IMG/VR virus record: IMGVR_UViG_3300029319_000482
Location: 1 to 24,739 of that record
Direction: 5' to 3' (one strand)
Length of the DNA: 24,739 nt
Origin: a virus
The notes beneath the pieces are model-generated. The model worked only from the letters and a program-made list of their open reading frames with translations, was not told where the DNA came from and did not search any database. Shown in pieces: positions 4,480 to 19,800 of the stretch (its first letter is position 1; each line of letters starts with the position of its first letter). The position numbers and the translations under genes were made by a program.

Positions 4480-5556
4480 ATGAGAATATCAGAAATAAAA
4501 AACGTAATGCAAAGTGTAATAATCCAAAACTACGAGAATATAAAAAAGGGAGCAAGTAAAGATAGACTTATCGCTTTGTATATTCAAGGTGGTGTTGGTC
4601 AAGGCAAGACCTCAGCAGTTAGATCTATGACTACTGATCAGCTAATTCTCGATGCTGTCCAAAGAATATTTGGTCAGAAGATTGATAAGTTAGAGTTTAG
4701 TAACTTAGGTTTAGCAATGTTCGATCCGGCAGAATTAGCCGGTTGGTGTGTGCCTAATGCAGATCAACAAAGCATGACTAGGCTTAGACCGGAGTTCTTG
4801 CCAAAAGATGGCTTTGGAATTTTATTTGTTGACGAGGTGGCTCAAGCTACTTTGATGCACCATAATATTTTTGGTCAGCTTGTAGATGAAAGAAGATTAG
4901 GTAATCATTACTTAGGCGATGGTTGGATAATCATATCGGCAGGCAATAGGCTCAAGGATAAAGCCGGAAGTAACAAGCTTCCGTCACAGCTTAGGGATAG
5001 ATTTACATATTTAGACCTAGAAATAGATCTTGACGATCTATTAAAATACTATGCTGAGAATAATGTAGATCCAAGGATCAGCAGTTGGCTTAAATTTGAC
5101 GATCAGTATTTATATGAGTTTGACGTAAATGCTGACAGCAACTGTACACCTAGATCAGTTGAAAGAGCATCGACCTTAATGAATTTAGGTTTGGACAGCT
5201 TATCTCTTAGAGGTGTTCTTAGTGGTCAAATTGGAGAGACAGCATCCGGATCTCTTATCGCTCATATGAAATTGTATGATAAGCTACCGGACTTTGACAG
5301 CTTAGTTAAAGATCCAAGTAATACAGCAATACCGGAAGACAGAGGAGTGCTGTATGCTCTTTGTGGATCATTGGCAAGTAAGATGACTATGGAGAATTGT
5401 TCTCCAATTCTCACTTATATGCAGAGAATACCGGAGCAAGAGTATATGGCTTTCATGCTTAAAGATGCAGTAATGAGAAATAAAACCTTAGTGACTAGTC
5501 CGGCAATGAAAGCTGTCTTGGGATCTCAAGGTAAGTTAAAAGACTTGTTACTTTAA
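4480..5556 (+). CDS. MoxR-type AAA+ ATPase
   Basis: 358 residues; ATG at 4480 with AAGGAG 7 bases upstream. Walker A is GGVGQGKTS (residues 37-45), Walker B is ILFVDEVAQA (about 113-122), a sensor-1-like IISAGNR follows near 150, then PSQLRDRF with an arginine-finger candidate. A helical lid domain follows. MoxR ATPases form hexamers and work with VWA-domain partners as chaperones that remodel or insert metals into target proteins. The next gene encodes exactly such a VWA partner, and a SprT-like protease precedes it. What it acts on in infection is not visible. Assigned from motifs plus pairing. Confidence 0.8.
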   Translation: MRISEIKNVMQSVIIQNYENIKKGASKDRLIALYIQGGVGQGKTSAVRSMTTDQLILDAVQRIFGQKIDKLEFSNLGLAMFDPAELAGWCVPNADQQSMTRLRPEFLPKDGFGILFVDEVAQATLMHHNIFGQLVDERRLGNHYLGDGWIIISAGNRLKDKAGSNKLPSQLRDRFTYLDLEIDLDDLLKYYAENNVDPRISSWLKFDDQYLYEFDVNADSNCTPRSVERASTLMNLGLDSLSLRGVLSGQIGETASGSLIAHMKLYDKLPDFDSLVKDPSNTAIPEDRGVLYALCGSLASKMTMENCSPILTYMQRIPEQEYMAFMLKDAVMRNKTLVTSPAMKAVLGSQGKLKDLLL

Positions 5557-5627: not shown

Positions 5628-6845
5628 ATGCAAGATTTAAAATTAGAAGATAAGTTCTCAAAGATAAGAATACAATTACTTTGGGATAGAGATGATAAAG
5701 GTCATGCCTTTTGGGGCATCATGTTAGCTAAAATGAAAATTATTGAGAATAATAAATTTGATACTTGTGCAACTGATGGCAGAGACATTTTTTATAATCG
5801 TCAATATTGTGAAAGCCTATCATTCGAGCATTTAAAAGGTGTTATTGTTCACGAGGTAAAACATAGGGCATTGATGCATCATGTAAGGCAACAGCATAGA
5901 GACACGACAGCATGGAATGTAGCTTGTGATCTATCAGAAAATCCTATTATCATTGATGCCGGTTTACAGTTGCCGGATGGTGTATTGCTTGATCCAAAAT
6001 TTAAGGGATGGAGTGCAGAGAAAATTTATAATGTGATTTATCCTCAGATCCAACAGCACATGAAGAAAATGCAAATGTCTGCAAGTGGTGCAAGTGACGA
6101 TGGACAAAATGGTCAAGGCGAACAACCTAGTTGGTTACAGCCTCAATCATGGGGCAATATCGTTGATAATGTCTGCGACAAATTGTCTCCATCTGAGTTA
6201 AAAGAAGAAGAGGCTAGTGTTAGGGAAGATATTTTCCAAGCAGTACGTCAAGCTAAGGATCGAGGTACAGTTCCGGCAGAGATCAAGAAAATGATTGATA
6301 GAATGAAGAGGGCAGAAATAGATTGGGAAGATGTTATTCAACGTCATGTCCAAGGCGATGTTCCTCATAATTTTACCTATCGTAAGATCCACAGAAAATT
6401 TTATTATAATAATAATATCATTGCTCCAACTATTGATTATGTTGGCTGTGGTCATGTAGTTGTTGGTGTCGATAGTTCCGGATCTGTCACAGATAAAGAA
6501 CTACAATTATTTTTAGGTGGTCTTAATGCTTTGTCATTAGAACTTAAACCTAAATCTGTAACGATCATAACTTGCGACAGCAAAATTCAAAATGTCTATA
6601 AGTTTGAGCAAGGCGAAGAGATCACTAAAATTTCTGCTGATGGCAGAGGTGGAACATGTGTCATGCCGGTGTTCAATTACATTGAAGAACATGACTTGGA
6701 TGTAGACAGCTTTATCTATTTTACTGATATGGGAGTGCATGACTTTCCGGAAGAAGAAATGCCATATCCGGTTCTTTGGGTCAGCACAGATCTTGACAGC
6801 GATAAAGCACCAATTGGTCAAACTACATATCTAAAGGTGGCTTAG
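5628..6845 (+). CDS. Zincin plus VWA-domain partner of the MoxR ATPase (DUF2201-like)
   Basis: 405 residues; ATG at 5628 with AGGAG upstream. The N-terminal part has a metallopeptidase-like motif VIVHEVKHRALMHH (HExxH at residues 75-79) followed by WNVACDLSENPIIIDAGL, the signature of the DUF2201 N-terminal family. The middle (about 145-185) is a Gln/Gly-rich linker. The C-terminal domain starts VGVDSSGSV near 279, a MIDAS DxSxS site for metal-dependent binding, with later aspartates at CDS and FTDMG that suit a VWA fold. The family acts with MoxR ATPases, and the genes are adjacent here. Whether the zinc site still cuts protein is unknown. The only long spacer of the block follows, with a ribozyme. 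Confidence 0.8.
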   Translation: MQDLKLEDKFSKIRIQLLWDRDDKGHAFWGIMLAKMKIIENNKFDTCATDGRDIFYNRQYCESLSFEHLKGVIVHEVKHRALMHHVRQQHRDTTAWNVACDLSENPIIIDAGLQLPDGVLLDPKFKGWSAEKIYNVIYPQIQQHMKKMQMSASGASDDGQNGQGEQPSWLQPQSWGNIVDNVCDKLSPSELKEEEASVREDIFQAVRQAKDRGTVPAEIKKMIDRMKRAEIDWEDVIQRHVQGDVPHNFTYRKIHRKFYYNNNIIAPTIDYVGCGHVVVGVDSSGSVTDKELQLFLGGLNALSLELKPKSVTIITCDSKIQNVYKFEQGEEITKISADGRGGTCVMPVFNYIEEHDLDVDSFIYFTDMGVHDFPEEEMPYPVLWVSTDLDSDKAPIGQTTYLKVA

Positions 6846-6869
6846 TGCCACTTTTGGAGAATTTCGAGG

Positions 6870-6926
6870 CTCTAGGATGGTCACACAGAGGCGAAACGAT
6901 AGTCTCATGTGTGATTATACCTAGAG
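6870..6926 (+). ncRNA. Long three-part hairpin upstream of the ribozyme
   Basis: CTCTAGG (6870-6876) pairs with CCTAGAG (6920-6926); TCACACA (6881-6887) pairs with TGTGTGA (6908-6914); GAGGC (6888-6892) pairs with GTCTC (6902-6906, one G-U). All are nested on one axis, with a 9-nt apical loop GAAACGATA. The CACACA strand could instead pair with the UGUGUG loop of the hammerhead's stem I (6950-6955). No known family recognised. Confidence 0.6.
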
Positions 6927-6936
6927 ATTTTACTAT

Positions 6937-6989
6937 GCTGATATAGGAATGTGTGTTCCTACTGATGATCACGAAAGTGTGAAATCAGC
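6937..6989 (+). ncRNA. Type III hammerhead ribozyme
   Basis: All parts are in order. Stem III 5' strand GCTGAT (6937-6942); cleavage-site base A6943 (triplet AUA, a valid NUH); stem I TAGGAA (6944-6949), loop TGTGTG, TTCCTA (6956-6961); core CTGATGA (6962-6968); stem II CAC/GTG capped by a GAAA tetraloop (6970-6979, flanked by a U-U at 6969/6980); core GAA (6981-6983); stem III 3' strand ATCAGC (6984-6989), pairing perfectly and giving the expected A15.1-U16.1. The one departure is the U-U where a G-C usually closes stem II. Self-cleavage after 6943 would separate the VWA message from the 7020 gene and leave the ribozyme core on the downstream RNA. Confidence 0.88.
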
Positions 6990-7019
6990 TAACTACTATC
7001 ATTATTTATGGAGTAACTA

Positions 7020-8036
7020 ATGCAATATGATATAGAAAAAAATAATTGGGCAAAGATATCCCATTCCAAAGTTTTGCAAGAACAATATATTTTAAGAAGT
7101 TATTTAAACTTTCTTAATCATGGATGTAAAAGTTTTGGATTTAATCAAAATCAATTAGTCCAATTAAAAAAGAGTAGTGCCACTTATTTAGCTACAAGTG
7201 GTTCAGCTAATCCATTAACTGACGATGAGAAAAATTTCATCGAGATGTTTTCAAGAGGAACTAATCATTATCATAATCATGGATTAGAAAGTATCTCAAG
7301 CTGTGCTGAGGCTGTCAGACAAATTAGAAGAAAGCAAAAACATAAAAGTTCTATTTATTCTAATAAGGTGGATGGTCGAAAAGTTTTTAGAAAAGAACGT
7401 GAATACACTCATGGATTTTTTAATGGGCAATCAGTTCATAAAAAGTTTGAGACATTATCTCAATGCTTTGCACAGAAATGGTGGAGAGATAAGCAATCAA
7501 GAACCAATATTATTGTTAAGGTTGATGCACTCTCACAGAAAATTTCTTACGAGAAAGCTGAAAGAGGCAGAGCCGGTAATTGGAACTATAACAGCGATGA
7601 GAAAAATACATTAACTTTAACTCCATCGTGGTTTAAAAATGTATTCATGAAAGGCTTGGCAACCACAATATATAAAAGCAAAACAGCATTTATTGCTAAA
7701 GCTAATCCTATTGAGGTATCAGAAAAAATTAAGTCTCAAAATTTAAATGCTTATGTCGTTGACGTTGTTACTTGTTACGATGGCATTATTGACGTTGAGC
7801 ATGATGTTTACTGCTTGGCTTATGAAAGCAAACCATCAGAACAGCTTAAAGTTGAGAATGATTATGGTGGTAATGTGCCTATGCCACAAGGAGAGGCTCA
7901 TAAGATTGGTCTGACCAATAATATTATCTACACTCCGGCAGAGACAATTAATTCTGTGTCCTCTAATTTTCGTAGGGCAGAAAATGTCATGAGTGGCAGA
8001 GTTCAGAAAAATATACTTGATGCTATGGGAGTTTAA
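7020..8036 (+). CDS. Unknown protein downstream of the ribozyme
   Basis: 338 residues; ATG at 7020 with GGAG about 7 bases upstream, 30 bases after the ribozyme. Basic and soluble: an N-terminal helical region, an aromatic-rich KFETLSQCFAQKWWRDKQSR stretch, a beta-rich central part with SWFKNVFMKG, then VDVVTCYDGIIDVEHDVYCL. No Walker, zincin, HTH or transmembrane motif is visible. It lies in the same rightward block as the MoxR/VWA pair and may be a substrate or partner of that pair; this is guesswork from position. The next gene starts 1 base after its stop. Confidence 0.65.
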   Translation: MQYDIEKNNWAKISHSKVLQEQYILRSYLNFLNHGCKSFGFNQNQLVQLKKSSATYLATSGSANPLTDDEKNFIEMFSRGTNHYHNHGLESISSCAEAVRQIRRKQKHKSSIYSNKVDGRKVFRKEREYTHGFFNGQSVHKKFETLSQCFAQKWWRDKQSRTNIIVKVDALSQKISYEKAERGRAGNWNYNSDEKNTLTLTPSWFKNVFMKGLATTIYKSKTAFIAKANPIEVSEKIKSQNLNAYVVDVVTCYDGIIDVEHDVYCLAYESKPSEQLKVENDYGGNVPMPQGEAHKIGLTNNIIYTPAETINSVSSNFRRAENVMSGRVQKNILDAMGV

Positions 8037-16794: not shown

Positions 16795-16804
16795 CTAACT
16801 ACTA

Positions 16805-19800
16805 TCATGCAGTCTTTCGTATGCCTACACTTCTCATGAGCTGAATACCTTTCTTCATAATTTCTTGTATTCTTTCTCTACGAAGTTTTATTAGTTTCTT
16901 TCTTGTTTCTTCCGGTATTCTTAAATTTCTTTCTAATTCTTTTATTTGTCTTAATAATCTGTTTCTTGCATTGTCTAATGCTTTGAATCTGCCAAATATT
17001 CTGACCTCATCATCGTATCTAGCCATTAGCTTCTGCATACTTTCTCTGTCACCTCTTCTTCTAGCTAAATCAAATCTAGAGAATATCGTGAATAGCTCTT
17101 TTCTCTTTTCTAAATAATTTTGTGTATCAACTCTATCAGACGGCTGTGCTATTACCTTCCTAACAAATGGTATTCTATTTTCTAAGTTACCCTCAAAGTC
17201 TCCTGTGGCTATTGCCGGTATAGTTTCAAATACTAAATTTGCACTTCTACCTACAAAAGCACCTGCACCACCAATGACATATTCGTAGAAATACTCAACA
17301 GTATCCGGAGAAACATCAATCAATCCACCCTCAACTTCATCTCCTCCGGTTAAATCACTAATAGTTTGGACTATAAACTTAGATAAAGCTCCGGTGTTAC
17401 TCCAATGAGTATAGGCATCAGGTGTAGTAGAAGAAGAGTACATAGGTGTTTCTTTATATATTGGATCTCCTCTGTAGTTTTTATTTATCATCATTTCTCC
17501 AAGAGGCTTTACTGATGTTGGCACGAGATAGGTTTCAAAGTTTTCAATAGCACCAAATGGGCTGAGAGTTTCCATAGTAGTGCCAAAAATACTGTTTGCC
17601 ATCTGACCAAATGTATACTCGCCTCGTGTGTAGCGACTTAATGCTCTTCCTAAGTTGAATGGCATATTTAATCCATAAGCTAGTGGTATTGTTATGAACT
17701 TCTCATCTGTTAGTCCAAATGTACCAAATACTAAATTATGCTCTAGCTTGTAATCACTAAGCTGATCATATGGATTTTGCTCATCTTCATCGTCTGGATC
17801 TCTAAAGAACGCCATAAGCTGATCTTGAAGCATTCCGTATACAATCAATCCACCTAAAAGTTTTCTAACTTTAGGCGACTTATAAGCCGCATTAAATATA
17901 GCCATACTGCCTTGTACAGATGCATTATAAAATAAATATAATGAGTTCATGAAAACTTTGTCTTCGCCACCTTTTGCAAAGTTTACTGTGACGTTTCTCG
18001 CTGCCTCGGCAGCTCTAGCATCAGTGAAACCTCTTTTCTTTAAATTAGTGAATGTAGCTACACGAACACCATTTTCAATTACAGTATTGTAGTCTTCTAA
18101 AAACTTTAACAGGCTTTTGCCTTTCTTTAAAAAGAAGTTGTTTCTTTGTACACCTAGAGATGTGGTGTCGCTTATGTCTTGTAACAGCTTATTAAGATTA
18201 TCCATTTGATCTTGAACTGTACCCATCATGTTTGTAGCGTTTTTACCACCGGCTCTAACAAACTTATTATACTCTTGTGACCAGTAGCTTGTATCATCTT
18301 GATTTCTTAAAACTTTTCTAATTCCATTAATAGCACCTGCAACATCTTTTACTATCTCTTTTGTAATTCCTTCTGCATCGTGTTGTTGTATATTTATAAG
18401 TGCTGTCTCTAAATCTTTTGCAAAGTTAGGAATAACAAACGCTGGGTTATAAGATGTATTAACATTTGATAAAAATCTATTTAACTTAGATAAAGCCTGA
18501 AATATAACATGGCTTGTTTTTGGATCGTAATGATGTTTAAACGCTCTGGCTAGGCTTTGTCTGTAAAAGTTTACGTAAACTTCTTCTCCATCAACTTTGA
18601 CTGTAAGCTGTAATGGATCTAAAGGCTCTTTTACATTTGTTACTTCACCAAAATTTTCTTTTAAATCTGTACGCAAATTATCGTTTGTAGCGAAACTTCC
18701 ATCACTCTGTTCTTCTTGGCCGCGCAGTAACCTGACTAAATCTTGCCCAACTTTATTTCTTTCAGATCTGTCAATAGCACGTTGATTTTGAGCAATCGTA
18801 GAAGCAAGAATATTCTCTGCATATTTAACACCTCTACCTCTGGCTTTAATATCCTCTTTACCTAAAGCTCCAAAGTAATTAACAGTTCTTCTTTTCTTAT
18901 TGAGCCTGTCATCATTAAACTCATCTGTAGAGTCTAAATCACCACGCAAAGGTACATAATGTTTAAATCTAGCTATATTATCATCGTATTCTTGCTTAGT
19001 TACCAATCCACTTTCGTATCTTATGTTGTTAGTGCTTGTTACAATTCTTTTTACACTTCTATCTACAGATCTAAATATTTCTTGATTTTTACTATCTAAT
19101 CCATCAAACCAGTCTAGTATTACATTGGCTTCTCCATTAGACATACCAGACCCTAGTCCTCTATTATATTCTTGAAGTATTTGCGCATTTCTTTCTTTAG
19201 CATGCATAGCATACAAATAAGCATCAACAAGAGCCATCTTTGGATCAACTGTTACATCTAATGCTCTTTTTACATATCCTTCGTCTTGTGCTTTAGCTGC
19301 TGCTTTAGCAGAGAGTTCTTGTAAATTATTTAATTGAGCTTCTGAAATATCAATATTCCTAATTTCTTCAATTAATGGTTTTACAATTGTTTCTTCTAAA
19401 TCAGATATTTTAGATCCAATAATACCTGTAGAGTTTACCTCTCTTAGGTAAGGATCCATAGCGTCTGCTATTGTGTAGCCTTTATCACGTAGCTCATCCA
19501 TCATAGCGCCTACAGGTTGAAAAGAATCTTGATATTTTTGTACTATTCTTTGTGCAGCCTCAGCTCTAGTTCTGCCAAACAATAATTTTTCTGGTATTAT
19601 TTTTAAACCTTTAGCAATTAAACCACTTAAATTATCGTATCTAATATTAAGTTGCGCGGTAGCTATGTCACGATCATTTTTTTCCTGTTGTCTTTGCTGT
19701 TCACTTTGTGGTGTTGCTCTTACTCTTGAGCGTCTAGTCTCAGGTTCTCCGGCAACATTTGCTCCACTTCCGATGTCATTTCGGGTAAACCTTCCGGGAA

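Follow-up and report, generated by a model that had tools for sequence, protein, structure and literature searches.

A type III hammerhead ribozyme lies on the plus strand between two genes of a 24.7-kb IMG/VR virus record (hereafter the window, meaning the whole stretch of DNA analysed), where its sequence and placement make it likely to be functional and to serve as message punctuation in a phage operon. The predicted cut, after position 6943, would separate the VWA message from the gene for a 338-aa protein.

The hammerhead and its gene junction

The ribozyme sits in a 174-nt gap without a confirmed gene, which also carries a strong hairpin, a AACTACTATCAT element and a GGAG. The genes and RNA elements of the junction are as follows.

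4480-5556, plus strand: MoxR-type AAA+ ATPase gene, 358 aa (PHROG 1297, 2e-58), operon partner of the VWA gene
5628-6845, plus strand: gene of 405 aa with a DUF2201_N putative metallopeptidase and a VWA-like domain (PF13203, 3e-32; PF09967, 1e-19)
6870-6926, plus strand: strong hairpin, 57 nt (-32.8 kcal/mol, z -8.2), ending 10 nt before stem III
6937-6989, plus strand: type III hammerhead ribozyme, U10.1-U11.1 variant, identified by sequence, family model, orthologues and covariation
6937-6942 with 6984-6989: stem III, GCUGAU/AUCAGC, 6 bp, including the A15.1-U16.1 pair
6943, plus strand: H17 = A, in the AUA triplet 6941-6943; the cut is predicted between 6943 and 6944 from the position in the fold
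6944-6949 with 6956-6961: stem I, UAGGAA/UUCCUA, 6 bp plus a U-G closing pair, loop UGUGUG
6962-6968, plus strand: catalytic core CUGAUGA (C3-A9), read from the sequence
6969-6980, plus strand: stem II, with U6969 opposite U6980 at 10.1-11.1, then CAC/GUG (6970-6972/6977-6979) and loop GAAA
6981-6983, plus strand: second core strand GAA (G12AA14), read from the sequence
6990-7019, plus strand: spacer, 30 nt, with the conserved AACTACTATCAT at 6991-7002 and a GGAG ribosome-binding site at 7011-7014
7020-8036, plus strand: downstream gene, 338 aa, starting 76 nt past the predicted cut

The ATPase partner gene is annotated MoxR in Roseobacter phage CRP-7, and a plus-strand gene that appears SprT-like by eye, without a Pfam match, precedes MoxR and VWA in that order. 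The 338-aa product has no match in Pfam, PHROGs or isolated phages.

Read base for base, the 53 nt form a complete type III hammerhead, and the invariant core, cleavage triplet and three stems named in an earlier sequence-only reading are all present in order. The two core strands agree with the hammerhead consensus C3UGANGA9 and G12AA14, A6984 pairs with U6942 as A15.1-U16.1, and the cleavage-site nucleotide is A6943, thus H and not G. Stem III is open and stems I and II are closed by their loops, as in type III topology. A Watson-Crick pair at 10.1-11.1, usual but not strictly required in hammerheads, is absent; the U-U that the same reading had noted in place of G-C is indeed U6969-U6980. 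Loop sequences are conserved among related ribozymes with this U-U (UGUGNN and GAAA/AAAA); they resemble those of satellite RNA hammerheads, and loops I and II would be of the tertiary-stabilised type.

A model of the family described below gives this site 74.8 bits (E 5e-21), its sole credible match in the window; the window is one of the 40 training sequences of this model, and the scan of other records gives the fairer view. No second hammerhead was found in the window by the family model or by other scans of it. A strict structural finder returned 0 matches in 0.9 Mb of reversed/complemented control sequence, which, with the score, bears out the earlier claim that accidental occurrence is improbable. 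That the site is a real type III hammerhead is strongly supported by the conservation and compensatory changes described below. The Rfam hammerhead search that had been proposed as a check came back empty: Rfam 15 reports no hammerhead at the site in 301 nt, even at E up to 10, and the copy does not reach the RF00008 (Hammerhead_3) gathering cut-off of 48.5. The window copy shares with RF00008 the core, the A15.1-U16.1 pair, a NUH site and three stems with stem III open, and differs in having U-U for the base pair 10.1-11.1, A17 for C17 and a three-pair stem II.

Predicted folding of the isolated 53-mer slightly favours a non-hammerhead pairing (-15.2 versus -12.9 kcal/mol, 2.3 kcal/mol apart), whereas the minimum-energy fold of the 174-nt context includes the hammerhead stems. 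As the competing fold is better in isolation, not in context, a conditional switch is conceivable, though unlikely: stem III' AUCAG would pair with the core CUGAU in an inactive fold, with ions, temperature, a ligand or translation of the gene before it deciding whether the RNA cuts. All seven aligned orthologues have CUGAU in both stem III and the core, the U-U cannot offer the G10.1 N7 that has been published as contacting metal (PMC7151607), and a phage core variant, A6C, has been published as Mn2+-preferring (PMC7151607). Many family members, however, have CUGU/ACAG or another stem III that could not form the same alternative, and the energy models ignore the loop-loop contact.

Orthologous junctions and the predicted cut

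Orthologous junctions were collected via neighbouring proteins and via a sequence pattern. The ribozyme occurs at the matching place in three phage lineages, in which the 338-aa protein is 50-56% and the VWA protein 68-73% identical. The window has CAC/GUG as stem II, L005 has CUC/GAG, and L008-L010 share UGC/GCA with the L021 lineage; two of the three pairs of this stem are altered on both sides, and the GAAA loop and U-U base are constant across these versions. The CUGAUGA core is constant in 7/7 aligned orthologues, the conservation in related phages that the sequence-only reading had called for, and with the compensatory changes it backs the type III assignment. The core variant of L204, CUGACGA, is an allowed change at N7. 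DNA identity between the window and two other lineages is 91-93% over the ribozyme, 71-74% over the VWA gene and 60-61% over the 338-aa gene.

In three relatives (L199, L200 and L211; VWA 72-73% identical) exactly the ribozyme stretch is missing and the hairpin and AACTACTATCAT-GGAG leader are retained. The ribozyme is therefore not essential at this junction, and its clean absence alone in near relatives marks it as an optional module, probably gained or lost as a unit. Relatives conserve the hairpin whether or not they have the ribozyme, and its retention without the ribozyme suggests that it probably has a role of its own. The AACTACTATCAT element likewise recurs before the post-VWA gene in many relatives, some without the ribozyme, and is also found at window positions 16797-16808, between convergent gene ends near 16.8 kb.

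The conserved stretch could instead be a small gene at 6846-6990, with a GTG/ATG start overlapping the VWA stop and the hammerhead incidental or secondary. The overlap is TAATG/TAGTG, the frame in L008/L009 (~59 codons) spans the ribozyme and meets the next gene in an ATGA overlap, and in the L021-like lineage it runs into that gene. The frame is broken, however, in the window and its near kin, which are one base shorter around 6935, and in L010 it shifts beyond the ribozyme. Substitutions in stem II follow the pairing, those that distinguish the hairpin arms of the window from those of L212 are mostly non-synonymous, and no protein relative was found. On the broken frame, the non-synonymous arm changes and the missing protein relative, we reject this frame as a gene and regard the whole reading as very unlikely.

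L009 and L010 have an additional hammerhead 4.1 kb upstream of the junction copy, and tandem arrays exist in other contigs, as might be expected of an excision device in which two hammerheads flank a block and release a defined, possibly circular RNA, as in retrozymes or viroid-like RNAs. We give this hardly any credence. The window has one copy only and not the two direct repeats of a retrozyme or viroid-like RNA, the flanked blocks are ordinary protein genes, and, in a 2011 study of prophage hammerheads (PMC3088659), circular or spliced products were sought and not found.

Message punctuation is the reading we prefer. A cut after 6943 between the two messages is predicted from hammerhead chemistry; the orientation, the constant spacing to start codons and the repeated occurrence at gene junctions back it. 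RNA polymerase would continue past the MoxR-VWA genes and transcribe the 338-aa gene as well, and the ribozyme would fold in the nascent RNA and cut after A6943. The upstream message would then finish with the 6870-6926 hairpin, ~17 nt more and a 2',3'-cyclic phosphate, which should protect it from 3' exonucleases. Its downstream counterpart would begin with a 5' hydroxyl and the folded ribozyme remainder, 76 nt before the start codon, a leader that should be a poor substrate for decay that senses a 5' monophosphate. Each message could thus have its own decay and translation, with no need for a terminator or a new promoter. RNase III cuts the early polycistronic mRNA of T7 at junction hairpins into stable monocistronic pieces; there a host protein cuts, whereas here the RNA itself would do so.

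Several other features of the window were observed. Positions 1985-2185, between small genes, are likely a structured RNA with a long outer stem (-60.5 kcal/mol, z -3.3); nearby segments are ~70% conserved in the L027/L134 lineage, and Rfam gave no match. Positions 1828-1875 resemble the 6870-6926 hairpin (GTCATACAG..CGAAACGATAT..TGTATGTTAT), with CAUACA/UGUAUG replacing CACACA/UGUGUG, and an inverted repeat at 2538-2582 (GACCACGTAA ... TTTACGTGGTC) is followed shortly by a small gene. An open frame of >2,550 codons on the minus strand (16805-24739) runs past the window end and is probably a giant phage polyprotein. The second hammerheads of L009 and L010 (L009:753-805, L010:754-806) are canonical type III (G-C, GUC) and lie upstream of the SprT-like gene; the window has at the matching place a GC hairpin and then a small UAGUUC...GAACUA hairpin, without a ribozyme.

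The U-U family and its hairpin-ribozyme-start layout

A scan of IMG/VR with the 19-base core pattern CTGATGATNNCGAAAGNNTGAAA, which does not select stems I and III or the A15.1-U16.1 pair, matched 88 stretches; the matched G-C pattern gave 35. Among 64 distinct matches with enough upstream sequence, stem II is paired in 63, and 61 are complete hammerheads with stem I, A15.1-U16.1 and stem III as well. An alignment of 40 distinct members has 97% of its cells paired (helices 93/100/100%), with double-sided changes at 14 of 15 pairs and a covariation of 1.006 versus 0.07-0.10 in slid controls; most of these members were chosen by a finder that requires pairing, and 61/64 is the unbiased figure. 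U-U at 10.1-11.1 is the norm in most family members and not peculiar to the window copy. For members of the U-U type, Rfam 15 reports no hammerhead at gathering or at E up to 10, and only a G-U member reached 32.2 bits, below the gathering cut-off of 48.5. Copies may be numerous, with seven in 4.6 kb of one record and five in each of three others. BLAST against isolated phages (INPHARED) gave only partial, chance-level matches to the ribozyme, and the VWA neighbourhoods of Roseobacter CRP-7, Vibrio K479, Thermus phiFa, Erwinia S6, Synechococcus MinM2 and Rhizobium TM3_14A contain no hammerhead copies.

The typical layout is a GC-rich hairpin, the hammerhead, ~25 nt with a ribosome-binding site, and a start codon, all on the coding strand. 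A ribosome-binding site and start codon follow the ribozyme in 88 of the 102 copies with flanks, at a median distance of 25 nt (5-95%: 20-34), and an obvious pair within 110 nt is missing in the other 14; random positions have such a pair within 110 nt in 22.5% of cases. Only 4 of the 102 lie inside open frames. The 65 nt upstream of stem III have a median z of -3.2 in 90 non-redundant copies versus -0.43 at control starts, and z is below -2 in 62 of these copies versus 17% of control sites. The gap between the hairpin and stem III is usually 0-6 nt. In the window, the 6870-6926 hairpin, absent from the earlier reading, looks like the other half of the device, and the predicted cut would leave it close to the 3' end of the upstream message. 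Intrinsic termination was considered for this hairpin and appears disfavoured, as nothing but AUUUUAC comes after it and in most family members the ribozyme begins directly after the hairpin, with no U run between them.

Among loci collected solely through VWA similarity, 30 of 80 contain copies, with all 51 hits on the VWA strand, and the remaining 50 have no copy; the search alignment included proteins from ribozyme-bearing loci. Copies lie +85 to +190 nt past the VWA stop in phages whose VWA protein is 24-73% identical to that of the window. Others precede a MoxR or SprT-like gene, and the MoxR-VWA operon is repeatedly bracketed. Ten genes that lie downstream of clustered copies were compared with PHROGs; they gave mostly unknowns and one MoxR-type ATPase, which points to no common function of the punctuated genes. 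The patchy distribution across VWA loci and the clean presence/absence between close relatives would suit a relic, decayed or neutral, left by a mobile hammerhead on its way through phage genomes. Set against this are the invariant core with compensatory stem changes, conservation better than that of both neighbouring genes, and the fixed distance to start codons, and we consider a relic very unlikely.

Two contigs of metagenome-assembled genomes carry tandem arrays. L155:4826-6840 (Paceibacterota, JAGVDT010000057) has eight U-U copies 150-450 nt apart, and L139:2473-6530 (Parcubacteria, JANLIU010000041) has nine copies, eight G-C with a UUC site and one U-U. Each array copy is preceded by a GC hairpin, the spacers lack convincing genes, and both arrays lie downstream of a gene with a similar N-terminal sequence. 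Such arrays would chop a long RNA into small units.

The U-U pair, the cleavage nucleotide and known systems

We tallied pair 10.1-11.1 and nucleotide 17 in 80 ribozymes, non-redundant at 80%, with the U-U and G-C sets drawn partly from separate scans. A17 is present in 37 of 43 U-U members (3 C, 3 U) and C17 in 29 of 34 G-C members, a coupling with a Fisher p of ~8e-13, a statistic that ignores common ancestry. Both kinds coexist in the same genomes. As G10.1 contacts metal via N7 (PMC7151607), U-U members must manage without it, and loss of this known ligand could slow cleavage. We tentatively raise the possibility that U10.1-U11.1 with a non-C site marks a distinct type III subclass that works without the G10.1 ligand and is kept beside canonical G-C/GUC hammerheads for a different rate or different ions, giving a genome graded self-cutting marks, each with a protecting 3' hairpin.

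The kind of system is already known. In Perreault et al. 2011 (PMC3088659), clustered prophage hammerheads flank one gene or a few, a role in processing long phage transcripts was proposed, cleavage of native arrays was shown, and natural U10.1-U11.1 mismatches were published as hammerheads, a surprising rarity among mixed types. Those phage hammerheads share with ours an intergenic position on the coding strand, near gene starts and often clustered; compared with the accessible text of that study, a large U-U type III family, an abutting upstream hairpin and a fixed start-codon distance are added here. HDV-like theta ribozymes of gut tailed phages are likewise self-cleaving, with a proposed role in RNA processing, but have another fold and are tied to tRNA 3' trailers, not mRNA junctions (PMC10879173). 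A literature search on hammerheads of marine and tailed phages returned only the 2011 study and unrelated papers, and the searched literature, as far as its accessible text extends, contained no description of a dominant U-U/A17 type III family, an abutting hairpin or a fixed start distance; because subscription papers and preprints were outside its scope, this is not proof of novelty. What looks new is how large the U-U family is, how strongly U-U is coupled to a cleavage nucleotide other than C, and the cassette of hairpin, ribozyme and start.

The family is a large, conserved set that is invisible to the standard RNA database, and the coupling between pair 10.1-11.1 and nucleotide 17 offers a fresh starting point for work on hammerhead catalysis. 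Relatives that differ naturally in having the ribozyme (L202) or lacking it (L199) are ready comparisons. Hairpin, ribozyme and start codon together would give phages a protein-independent means of splitting their messages, with a placement that makes this function directly testable.
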